From a virus, in IMG/VR virus record IMGVR_UViG_3300037258_000219, positions 1 to 40,559 of that record: 40,559 bases of DNA; one strand, given 5' to 3'. This document shows positions 36,162-40,559 of this stretch, piece after piece (positions within the stretch are counted from its first letter, which is position 1; the number at the start of each line of letters is the position of its first letter). Position numbers and translations under genes: made by a program. Under the pieces are notes generated by a model, which worked only from the letters and a program-made list of their open reading frames with translations, searched no databases and was not told where the DNA came from.

Positions 36162-36359
36162 GTGGACTACTTCAGCTACAACGCCCAGCAGCTGGAGCAG
36201 CAAGAGGCGCGGCGGCGCGGGCGAGCGCAGGAACGCGAAGACTTCGCGGCCGAGCTCGCGCCGCCGCCGAGCGGGATGATCGTCCAGGAGGACCACGCCT
36301 CCACCACGGTGATCGAGCGGGTGCGCGAGCAGATCTACGCGATGCTCGGCAAGCGCTAG
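36162..36359 (+). CDS. Last rightward gene, charged helical protein
   Basis: 65 residues from GTG 36162, two bases after the previous stop, with a weak ribosome site (GAAGG overlaps it). Glu/Gln/Arg-rich helices frame a Pro-rich patch (AELAPPPSGM). It ends in TAG, which overlaps the TAG of the opposing gene by two bases, so the two arrays meet without an intergenic terminator. Function unknown. Confidence 0.6.
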   Translation: MDYFSYNAQQLEQQEARRRGRAQEREDFAAELAPPPSGMIVQEDHASTTVIERVREQIYAMLGKR

Positions 36360-36979
36360 ACCCGACCGACTCCGCCCATGAGCAGCCGGTGGAGCTCCGC
36401 CGGCTCCGAGGGTAGCGCCACCACCCCGCCGTAGCTAAAGTCCTTCAGCAGCTCGAATGCCTTGACCATGACCGTCTCGTCGGCGTCGAACACCGGCATC
36501 TGCTCCTCACCTCGAGCGATCTCCTGCAGGAGCAGCGTCTCGATGAAGTTCTCCGGCGGCCCCTTCAGGCGCGTGAGGCGAAGACGCAGCGCCGACAGAT
36601 CCTGGTAGGCCTTCTGGCGCGCCTGCCGGCACCCGGCGATGCGGCCGGTGAGCCCGGTGCGCACCATCTCGAGCATGTCCTGGTAGGGATCGCTCGCGCG
36701 GATAATCAGCTTCAACATGCCGACGATCTGCTCGCGCGCCTTGGTCTCCAGCGGAGGCGCCTGGGAGGTACCGCCGGTGCGATCAAACTCGGCCCGCATC
36801 TCCGGCTCGGAGAGGATCTTGTACGCCATGTTGACGTCGGTCATGCGCTCGGTGGAACCGCCCTCGCGGTCCGGGTGGGCGTGCGAGGCGGCCACGCGGT
36901 AGGCGGCGCGGATCTCCTCGTCGGTGGCCGTGCGGGCCACACCGAGCACAGCGTAGGGATCGAAACGCGAGTCGGTCAT
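36356..36979 (-). CDS. DnaJ-domain (J-protein) phage protein
   Basis: 207 residues from ATG 36979 (GGAGAG upstream). GTG 36997 is an alternative. Residues 7-65 form a J domain: DPYAVLGVARTATDEEIRAA, then the HPD tripeptide at 35-37 and a DVNMAYKILSEPEMR helix. The HPD loop is what activates Hsp70/DnaK ATPase. Residues 80-207 are helical and unlike zinc-finger or C-terminal client-binding domains of DnaJ. It lies last in the leftward array. It could recruit host DnaK to phage replication or head assembly. Confidence 0.88.
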   Translation of the reverse strand: MTDSRFDPYAVLGVARTATDEEIRAAYRVAASHAHPDREGGSTERMTDVNMAYKILSEPEMRAEFDRTGGTSQAPPLETKAREQIVGMLKLIIRASDPYQDMLEMVRTGLTGRIAGCRQARQKAYQDLSALRLRLTRLKGPPENFIETLLLQEIARGEEQMPVFDADETVMVKAFELLKDFSYGGVVALPSEPAELHRLLMGGVGRV

Positions 36980-36993
36980 GGGCTCTCCAGGGT

Positions 36994-37206
36994 TCACCGC
37001 CGACGGTGCTGGTCAGCGTTCGGGCAGGTAGCGAAATGCGAGCGATGACGCGAGAGGTCGAGCTGGTGCTCGGCATCGGTGGATTGCGTCGAGGCCTCAT
37101 CGACCGGCATGCGCTTACCAGCCTTGGTGCGAAACCAGACGATCGGGGCGCCGCACGAGCTGCAGGGCACTGTGAACGGATGCCGCCGCCGGATCTCGTC
37201 GCTCAT
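36994..37206 (-). CDS. Zinc-ribbon phage protein
   Basis: 70 residues. CSSCGAPIVWFRTKAGKRMP gives one CxxC knuckle, and HRSHFATC closes with His and Cys, so one zinc can be bound. The pattern is common in phage early regions and has no established role. The start ATG at 37206 overlaps the previous gene's stop. Confidence 0.82.
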   Translation of the reverse strand: MSDEIRRRHPFTVPCSSCGAPIVWFRTKAGKRMPVDEASTQSTDAEHQLDLSRHRSHFATCPNADQHRRR

Positions 37207-37679
37207 GGCAAGTGCGGCAGGAGCGGGGGCATCTTGCCGGTCTCGTAGGCGCGCGCGATCAGCGGCCGGGCGTGCTCGGACATCGTCTCCCCGTTGGGCA
37301 GCACGATGTTCGCCATGAACTCATCCTCGAACTGGCTGATGCCCGTCTCCACCGTCTCGAGCTTCGCCTTGATACACAGCGCGAGCGCCCGCCAGCGCTG
37401 CCGGCAGGCGCGCTCCCAGCGCTCATGAGCCTGCTGCGTGGAAGCGGGCCGGGTGCTGCCGTGCTGGCTGGTGCGCACCTCGGTGAAGTCCTTGGCCTTC
37501 GGATCGGGCAGCGGCAGCAAGAAGCGGATGTGCCGACCCTGGGCGCGAAACGCGATCATCGCGCCCGTCTCGCGCCACCCGGAGAGGAACTGGTCCGCAC
37601 CGTAGCGGCGCAGGATGGTCTCGATCTCGGCGCGCGAGCGCTCGACGGACACCTCGGTGCCTTCGGCGTAGCGCGACAT
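37203..37679 (-). CDS. Conserved phage protein of unknown function
   Basis: 158 residues. The opening SRYAEGTEVSVERSRAEIET, then ILRRYGADQF and GRHIRFLLPLPDP, is a recurring protein in phage early regions. A helical middle with a Trp-Arg-rich stretch (HERWERACRQRWRALA) follows. No enzymatic motif is seen. The ATG at 37679 lies next to the stop of the dipeptide-repeat gene, which also sits here. Confidence 0.8.
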   Translation of the reverse strand: MSRYAEGTEVSVERSRAEIETILRRYGADQFLSGWRETGAMIAFRAQGRHIRFLLPLPDPKAKDFTEVRTSQHGSTRPASTQQAHERWERACRQRWRALALCIKAKLETVETGISQFEDEFMANIVLPNGETMSEHARPLIARAYETGKMPPLLPHLP

Positions 37680-37945
37680 CAGCTGGAGCTCTGACCAGGA
37701 AACCCGTACCCGTCCCCGGACCCGTCCCCGTACCCGTCCCCGTACCCGTACCCGTACCCGTCCCCGTACCCGTACCCGTACCCGTCCCCGTACCCGTCCC
37801 CGTACCCGTCCCCGTCCCCGTACCCGTACCCGTCCCCGGACCCGGACCCGTCCCCGTACCCGTACCCGGACCCGTCCATCGGAAGCGCGCTCGCTTCGCT
37901 CGCGCGCACGAGAGAGGGAACGGCCGGAGTTATCGGCCCGGCCAT
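37679..37945 (-). CDS. (Tyr/Asp/Ser)-Gly dipeptide-repeat protein
   Basis: 88 residues from ATG 37945 with GGAGG upstream. Residues 1-23 are ordinary. Residues 24-81 are 29 consecutive X-Gly dipeptides where X is Tyr (14), Asp (11) or Ser (4). A short FPGQSSS tail follows. Every Gly is GGG, and X codons are TAC, GAC or TCC, so the repeat unit differs by one or two bases. The protein should be disordered and could be sticky or phase-separating through Tyr-Gly. No relatives are recognised. Its frame is set between two conserved genes, so it is probably translated. Confidence 0.75.
   Translation of the reverse strand: MAGPITPAVPSLVRASEASALPMDGSGYGYGDGSGSGDGYGYGDGDGYGDGYGDGYGYGYGDGYGYGYGDGYGDGSGDGYGFPGQSSS
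37703..37876 (-). repeat. 29-copy hexamer tandem repeat
   Basis: 174 bases consist of CCCGTA, CCCGTC and CCCGGA units on the plus strand. Read on the minus strand these are TACGGG, GACGGG and TCCGGG. The unit order is irregular, so it is not a simple perfect satellite. The reading frame stays open because the unit length is six. Such arrays can change copy number by slippage in whole dipeptides. Confidence 0.95.
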
Positions 37946-38214
37946 TTGTCCTCCGCGGCCTCGATCAAGAGGATCAACGCAGTGCGAGGGACGGTCACGT
38001 TGCCGGCTTCATCCATGACCGTGCCGGAGTGCGGACCTTGCAGGGCGAGCTGACCGATACCTTTGGTCGTGCCCCACCGACGGATGCACGCAGCGTGCTC
38101 GAGCACCAGGGCGGATGGGCTCTCGGTGACGCGACCGACGAACACCCAGCCGCGATCGAGGACCGCGATCGCAAGTGGGCTCGAGTTTTTCTTCTCAACC
38201 TTCGACGACGCCAT
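37930..38214 (-). CDS. Conserved small phage protein
   Basis: 94 residues with the pattern GWVFVGRVTESPSALVLEHA, then CIRRWGTTKGIGQLALQGP and TVMDEAGNVTVPRTALILLI. This small beta-rich protein recurs in phage early regions without a proven function. The ATG at 38214 has TAGGAGAG upstream. It overlaps the dipeptide-repeat gene by 16 bases. Confidence 0.8.
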   Translation of the reverse strand: MASSKVEKKNSSPLAIAVLDRGWVFVGRVTESPSALVLEHAACIRRWGTTKGIGQLALQGPHSGTVMDEAGNVTVPRTALILLIEAAEDKWPGR

Positions 38215-38430: not shown

Positions 38431-38708
38431 GACGGCCTCCTCGCGTGGTAGTCATCCCAGGTCTCCTGCCCGAGCGCCCGGAGCAGCTCGATCACGCACT
38501 CGATGTTCCGCTGCATCATGCCCGCAATGGGCGAGACCAACGCCAGGTACTCGGCCATCATCTGCATGAGCTCCCCGCCCACCTGTCCGGGACTCTTGTC
38601 CTGATGTTCCACGAGGAACTGCTGCAGGTGCGGGGAGAGCACGCAGTGCACGCAGTGCTCGTTTTCCAGGCGCGCCTCGCCCGCGCCGGCGCTAGAAGGG
38701 GATGTCAT
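38427..38708 (-). CDS. Hypothetical helical protein
   Basis: 93 residues from ATG 38708. A CVHCVL segment near residue 20 precedes helices such as LMQMMAEYLALVSPIAGMMQ. It overlaps the end of the SSB-like gene by 17 bases. It may partner with that protein, but nothing in the sequence proves it. Confidence 0.68.
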   Translation of the reverse strand: MTSPSSAGAGEARLENEHCVHCVLSPHLQQFLVEHQDKSPGQVGGELMQMMAEYLALVSPIAGMMQRNIECVIELLRALGQETWDDYHARRPS

Positions 38709-39384
38709 CGTCGAAGTCCGGATCGGTAGAGGGCGCGACCGAGCCAGGTCCGACACTCGGAGCATTGACGGCGACGGCGGAGAACGCCGGTGCAGTTCCG
38801 CCCCGGATCTCCCCGGTCGAGGCATCGAAGGCCGGCCCTGCCTGGCGCGGCGGGGCCGCCTGGCTGGAGAACGCTCCAGCGCCGGCAGGATGAGCGGCGG
38901 GTACGCCGAAAGCTCCAGGCGGGCTGTACTGCTCGCCCTGGACGGCCCCGCGCGGGGTCTGGATGCGAAGGCCGCCCACGACCTGGCCGGCCATCATGAC
39001 GGAGCTGTCCACGTACAGGCGTACCACCTTGCCCACCCAGGACTCGCTTTGCTCACCGAAGGCGGCCGCGAGCGTCCTGATGTTGGTGGCGTTGAGCTTC
39101 AGGCCCTTCTTCGCCTCGCTGAAGTAGATCACCCACTTGGTCTCGGCCCCCATGCCGCCCTGGCCGCGGAACTGCTCGGGCTGCACCCCGCGGATGGTGA
39201 CCTTGACCGGCCCACCGGCCTGCTCGACGTCCGAGCGGGTGAGGTATTTCGAGGAGAGCATTTGTGAGATGTGCGGCATAAGGATTTTCTCTGCGTCGGG
39301 GTTGGCGGCTCGCCAGGCCTCCAGGGCCAAGCGATTCATGCGGGTGTTGTGATCCTCGGCCGGATCAGCCGGCGGGCTCGCCAC
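38692..39384 (-). CDS. SSB-like DNA-binding protein with DDDIPF tail
   Basis: 230 residues from GTG 39384 (ATG 39339 is an alternative). A beta-rich region around 55-145 (PVKVTIRGVQPEQFRG, TKWVIYFSEAKKGLKLN, VVRLYVDSSVMMAGQVVGGL) may be an OB-type fold. Then comes a Pro/Ala/Gly linker and a terminal PDFDDDIPF. That acidic tail is the hallmark of bacterial SSB, where it recruits replication and repair proteins. The body does not look like classical SSB, so this is either a divergent SSB or a recombination mediator. It is the only clear replication-type gene seen. Confidence 0.75.
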   Translation of the reverse strand: MASPPADPAEDHNTRMNRLALEAWRAANPDAEKILMPHISQMLSSKYLTRSDVEQAGGPVKVTIRGVQPEQFRGQGGMGAETKWVIYFSEAKKGLKLNATNIRTLAAAFGEQSESWVGKVVRLYVDSSVMMAGQVVGGLRIQTPRGAVQGEQYSPPGAFGVPAAHPAGAGAFSSQAAPPRQAGPAFDASTGEIRGGTAPAFSAVAVNAPSVGPGSVAPSTDPDFDDDIPF

Positions 39385-40432: not shown

Positions 40433-40559
40433 GACGAACACCCGCATTGTATGGGTAGTGACGCCAAACAGGAAGTACAGAATGTACGACCTTGAGCTAT
40501 CATCGCGACCCATGTCACAGATCAAGAAGCGGCGCGAAGCGGCGGGCCTGACACAGGCC
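40433..40559. repeat. 127-bp terminal direct repeat, right copy
   Basis: Identical to bases 1-127. It repeats the palindrome (40475-40487) and the first 26 codons of the XRE-type regulator starting at 40482, so the gene fragment here is not a second gene. Confidence 0.93.

Follow-up and report, generated by a model that had tools for sequence, protein, structure and literature searches.

Phages carry, directly downstream of a small gene of the DUF6948 family, a second gene encoding an almost pure alternation of Gly with one other residue (X-Gly), and the pairing of this array gene with its upstream neighbour is near-obligate. The pairing is our main point, and it was missed by an earlier note on the DNA analysed here, a virus record of 40,559 bases (the window). 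We give a probability of roughly 45% to the reading in which the array gene comes second in a two-gene unit, phage-specific and translationally coupled, whose multivalent polymer would work with or on DUF6948. The unit is widespread, occurring in hundreds of metagenomic viral contigs and in sequenced phages of several host genera. It is apparently undescribed: no described counterpart was found in the literature searched, where X-Gly peptide strings gave no match and DUF6948 went unmentioned.

The gene pair in the window

The X-Gly repeat protein is encoded at 37679..37945 on the minus strand by an 88-aa open reading frame (ORF) with its ATG at 37945; the ORF in the earlier note is real, and its strand had been missed. 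A lead of 24 aa ends in D24, residues 24-81 form 29 X-Gly pairs, and the tail FPGQSSS follows. Translation and codons confirm the earlier description of 29 pairs with X only Tyr, Asp or Ser: there are 14 Tyr (TAC), 11 Asp (GAC) and 4 Ser (TCC), with no other X, and Gly is GGG in 29/29 cases. At the DNA level this is a tandem array of 29 copies of GGG-(TAC/GAC/TCC) at 37702..37875 (minus strand), where searches for the exact pattern matched that strand alone; Tandem Repeats Finder (TRF) scores the stretch 37702-37875 at 250 when read as 29.0 copies of a 6-bp unit and at 285 when read with a 24-bp unit. GGG accounts for only 12/62 of the Gly codons in neighbouring genes, so the uniform codons belong to the repeat itself and do not reflect overall codon preference. 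When folded as a DNA strand, the array showed nothing unusual (z +3.95, less stable than shuffles, in a folding model without quadruplexes).

The partner gene (37930..38214, minus strand; 94 aa) was linked to the DUF6948 family (Pfam PF22253) through the blastp cluster that it forms with 63 further ORFs found beside arrays. Its end overlaps the start of the repeat gene by 16 nt (37930..37945, minus strand). That start precedes the DUF6948 stop codon by 13 nt, an offset that ranks second in frequency among the 240 DUF6948 loci described below. A Shine-Dalgarno-like GGAGG (37950..37954, minus strand) stands 4 nt before the array-gene ATG, and at the other end a TGATG junction (37677..37681, minus strand) couples the repeat gene to the next gene of the operon (37203..37679, minus strand; 158 aa; phrog_17260, phrogs E 3.5e-57), a neighbour outside the two-gene unit. 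GGAGG and TGATG were read directly in the sequence, and together with the overlap they bear out the earlier view of an in-frame array flanked by conserved genes and preceded by a good ribosome site. The array operon also holds a J-domain protein (36356-36997, minus strand; Pfam DnaJ E 1.8e-16). A 230-aa protein at 38692-39384 (minus strand) has the C-terminal end DFDDDIPF, resembling the acidic tip of single-strand DNA-binding proteins; its phrogs matches are all of unknown function.

The record carries a 127-b direct terminal repeat (1-127 and 40433-40559), so the assembly ran through the array, and the record probably represents a whole phage genome, circular or circularly permuted. The 174-b array exceeds the length of a 150-b short read, and its 29 copies are counted from the assembly.

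Pairing of DUF6948 with X-Gly arrays across phages

PF22253 was matched by 28/38 members of the partner-gene alignment (best E 3e-33). The window's own partner protein is without a Pfam match at E 0.1; it is 58-67% identical to those of loci L044, L060 and L070 and linked by blastp to the rest of the family. The array genes of these three loci keep a MAGP(V) start and a PGxTS end around arrays of differing order. The Pfam entry, that of a phage family, consists of a single domain of unknown function and, judged by its description, contains neither the array gene nor the coupling nor the hypervariability. Structure searches with DUF6948 returned no informative solved relative. A link to defence systems was considered and rejected, PADLOC giving one marginal BrxA match in 38 DUF6948 members.

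The pairing was examined from both sides. A scan of viral contigs for (GGGKMC)6 gave at least 119 loci, and a wider GGGNNN scan supplemented it. Among the matches listed by the two, a DUF6948 relative lies directly upstream on the same strand in 66/97 viral loci with multi-variant arrays. Nearly all of the 31 loci without it are cut by a contig end; the upstream DNA is long enough to demonstrate absence in only four (L066, L091, L107 and L156). In the opposite direction, searches of viral contigs with alignments of three DUF6948 subfamilies found 571, 397 and 348 relatives (sets that may overlap), from which the best 80 per query were taken as 240 loci; percentages below describe those sets, not all phages. 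An X-Gly run follows directly downstream in 228 of these 240 and is absent in 10; the other 2 loci are cut short. With about 10/240 loci lacking an array, DUF6948 can stand alone. Loci L469, L484, L491, L507, L417, L449 and L464 are array-less.

A stricter script retained 227 X-Gly arrays, with 200/227 in phase +2 to the DUF6948 stop and array-gene starts mostly 10, 13, 22 or 25 nt before it. The window shows the same arrangement, an X-Gly ORF directly downstream of DUF6948 on the same strand with an overlapping start. The earlier note had allowed for frame breaks in relatives; the opposite was seen, the X-Gly frame being kept across hundreds of loci. From the phase, the start codons and the in-frame fusions described below, we infer that the array ORF is translated.

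In bacterial genomes, multi-variant arrays are rare (11/121 among the matches listed), and most of the others are mono-unit, e.g. GGGGCC. Bacterial loci L227-L333, often from Streptomyces and myxobacteria, are mostly mono-unit (GGGGCC)n or (GGGTCC)n, a different kind of repeat. DUF6948 was found in 2/3 bacterial genomes checked by locus, with the full pair in one (L322), and in 1/398 genomes of one phylum, that one having been chosen as an array carrier and the other 397 having none. A cellular origin was rejected on the rarity of multi-variant arrays in bacteria and the absence of DUF6948 from those 397 genomes; as far as these genomes tell, the DUF6948 + X-Gly unit appears essentially phage-only. 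Neighbours of the 240 loci are mixed. The recurrent few, by eye YqaJ-like, Erf-like, AAA-ATPase-like and DnaB-like, each in <20/240, look like recombination or replication genes, which suggests an early region.

Sequenced isolates carry the pair as well. All 115 Rheinheimera Barba phages have it, and further carriers are Rhodobacter RcapNL, Iodobacter PhiPLPE, Chlorobiaceae phage CV-1-33 and uncultured phages. The main text of the Barba18A transcriptome paper (PMC9305737), consulted for timing, does not name gp017 or gp018. Array genes in public records are unannotated, in the wrong frame or named 'lamprin'. In CV-1-33 (L352:2768-3024) the deposited CDS (MAMAMALAM...) is apparently in the wrong frame, the X-Gly frame starting at an overlapping ATG and ending GDV; in PhiPLPE (L350:1174-1409) a GGC-codon X-Gly array directly after the DUF6948 gene is unannotated in the record; and in MW202613 (L346:2767-3081) the array gene is annotated 'lamprin'.

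Contigs end <700 b downstream of DUF6948 in 59/240 loci, against 9 upstream. This concentration indicates that the array breaks assemblies, of which users of viral assemblies should be warned, and that metagenomic copy numbers may be collapsed. The breaks are also what an assembly artefact of a short repeat might look like, and yet independently sequenced phage isolates carry the array, which refutes an artefact as the source of the array itself; we consider that explanation negligible.

Codons, residues and change of the arrays

Among 220 arrays found via DUF6948, Gly is encoded by GGC in 155, GGG in 31, GGT in 16, GGA in 1 and by mixed codons in 17; the Gly codon and the third base of X vary from phage to phage but keep to one form inside an array. 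X codons are almost only TAY, GAY and TCY. Overall, X is Tyr (~35%), Asp (27%) or Ser (27%), less often Asn, Phe, His or Cys; ~40% of X is aromatic and ~26% acidic, and basic and aliphatic residues are nearly absent. Individual arrays differ widely in their content of Asp and of Ser. Per array (5-95% range), aromatic X makes up 19-57% and acidic X 9-47%, and 88% of arrays have no basic residue. Array length has a median of 33 units (5-95%, 18-53). The window array fits the alphabet of the family, in which Tyr, Asp and Ser (with Asn, Phe and His) alternate with Gly and basic residues are almost absent. Loci L029 and L065 each have two separate X-Gly arrays, with Thr and Pro as X in some units.

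The Tyr/Asp/Ser shares are.39/.29/.22 in the codon class GGC+C,.37/.24/.33 in GGG+C,.34/.24/.32 in GGC+T and.31/.25/.31 in GGT+C. This common mix across differing codon classes argues that, as read from the codons, the conserved entity is the protein, and not a G-quadruplex or any one DNA repeat. Asp and Ser together number 3590 and His and Cys 158, although reaching Asp or Ser from Tyr TAY needs transversions and reaching His or Cys only transitions, which points to selection on the amino acid. Single-base changes at Gly positions were 234 synonymous and 109 non-synonymous (neutral, ~1:2), in regions whose filter somewhat favours Gly.

A readout at the level of DNA, as a G-quadruplex array, a recombination hot spot or a VIPR-like guide-RNA repeat, is to be weighed against this codon usage. 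The (GGGNNN)29 of the window could form G-quadruplexes, its 29/29 GGG codons giving runs of >=3 G, but such runs are not conserved in related arrays, and the GGC of 155/220 arrays breaks G3 runs. An invariant GGG was rejected as an artefact of ascertainment by the GGGKMC pattern, the partner-protein search having returned mostly GGC. With the differences from VIPR given below, we hold a DNA-level element to be very improbable.

Isolates show directly how the arrays change. Barba1A has 29 units and Barba15S 30, the difference being one Tyr-Gly within a Tyr-Gly run, and Barba31A has 36 units against 34 in Barba19A. In the Pectobacterium phages Ymer, Amona, Taid, Koroua, Pappous and Sabo and the related Setonix, the array has 22-40 glycines in differing order, while the start MSKLIKPE(K/R)YG is conserved and the end is EG in all but Taid. 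Ymer and Amona are identical in DUF6948 DNA over the compared 382 nt, yet have 31 and 28 glycines in reshuffled order. Across such comparisons, we read the array as changing much faster than the neighbouring DUF6948, in 6-bp steps. Both repeat number and X order thus vary among related phages, the comparison that the earlier note had proposed, and its suggestion of length change by slippage finds support in these isolates.

Slippage is recognised by homogeneous codons within an array together with length changes of 6 bp, and a functionless microsatellite expanding in a dispensable frame would show both. Such neutrality would have to account for an array kept beside the same gene in ~95% of the 240 loci, in the same phase and overlap, with one residue mix across codon classes and X restricted to Tyr, Asp and Ser against mutational expectation; we regard it as improbable.

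Gly is always GGN, so a conserved Gly is indistinguishable from a conserved GG in RNA. The array might therefore act as RNA, with DUF6948 or another protein binding the GG every 6 nt in its own mRNA in a TRAP-like autoregulation and the peptide a by-product. GG recurs at a 6-nt period in every array whatever the third base, and over 27-31 residues there is a weak alignment of A3-type DUF6948 with TRAP/MtrB (PDB search E 0.7), which hhalign scores at 19.2, the best of 20 shuffled TRAPs reaching 13.7. The periodicity, however, follows from Gly codons alone, and the match to TRAP falls short of significance (hhalign probability 4.5% for A3; per-domain i-Evalue 180) and is absent for A2, A4 and the full set A5 (hhalign probability <1%). 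TRAP homology was rejected on hhalign, the shuffled controls and a comparison with other RNA-binding proteins. Translation is instead indicated by the fixed phase, the start codons and the in-frame fusions to domains, and we find the RNA explanation distinctly improbable.

Proposed function and known systems

Of 59 complete A4-type genes, 36 continue in frame beyond the array into a C-terminal sequence of >60 aa, mostly one conserved ~115-aa domain, for which one member gave a weak DUF7666 match (E 0.009, below the Pfam cut-off). In 131/183 loci, only 0-10 residues follow the array, which is then a separate small gene. A second, different C-terminal sequence is fused to the X-Gly array at L512:4618-4818, L514:4459-4725, L516:4408-4629 and L517:4630-4842; that of L512 reads ...WPDDIAKAEAAGLDVNWCRRLGLLRPL, and neither L512 nor L516 gave a Pfam match for it.

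The fusions to a conserved domain in many A4-type phages are what would be expected if the polymer did not self-associate and were only a flexible spacer, tag or decoy, for instance one linking DUF6948 or the C-terminal domain, or a tail that aids solubility or counters defence. The irrelevance of order and the broad range of lengths also suit a linker. With 0-10 residues after most arrays there is nothing to link covalently, though, and ~40% aromatic X is not needed by a plain linker; we think this explanation possible but unlikely.

Our preferred reading, the coupled two-gene unit, would join a small folded protein of the DUF6948 family (gene 1) to an almost pure alternating X-Gly polymer with X as Tyr, Asp or Ser (gene 2). 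The polymer would be a flexible, non-basic, multivalent chain with aromatic stickers between Gly spacers, and early in infection it would act with or on DUF6948, as a tether or as a scaffold that associates with itself; its fusion to a C-terminal domain in one subfamily fits a tether or scaffold arm. Composition and approximate length would matter and exact order would not, so hexamer slippage would be tolerated and may tune valency. The earlier proposal of a sticky or phase-separating (condensate) peptide is compatible with the aromatic and Gly composition. A bolder version, which we consider rather unlikely, has a DUF6948 oligomer recognise the period-6 array, as peptide, mRNA or both, and nucleate a phage-made compartment or a regulatory particle, with rapid hexamer slippage adjusting its size; this would be a fast-evolving polymer system, independent of order, in very diverse phages. 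Near-isogenic phages differing in polymer length and order form a natural series in which the role of sequence-independent composition is testable in real infections.

Three known systems invite comparison with the unit. The VIPR vrRNA arrays are phage-encoded, non-coding repeats of YNNGG pentamers with hypervariable NN (PMC13142463), and they too are tandem repeats of GG plus a variable dinucleotide beside a small gene. X-Gly arrays differ in their period of 6 (TRF), in a three-letter alphabet with NN nearly always TA, GA or TC (X codons almost only TAY, GAY and TCY), and in an open, coupled reading frame; the guide-RNA reading was rejected on these three counts. TRAP binds regularly spaced G-containing triplets (NAG). 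TRAP/MtrB resembles DUF6948 in being a small protein and in its weak local similarity to the A3 type, a similarity that is not significant and is absent in other DUF6948 subfamilies. Finally, the FUS-type [G/S]Y[G/S] proteins, LARKS and FG nucleoporins are low-complexity aromatic/Gly proteins that phase separate. In a comparison at the level of composition, X-Gly polymers share with them Gly spacers, aromatic stickers and few basic or aliphatic residues, and differ in a strict two-residue period, Asp as a main letter, the lack of a basic partner region and encoding by a small phage gene of their own. Should the favoured mechanism hold, the physics of the polymer would resemble that of these known low-complexity sticker proteins.
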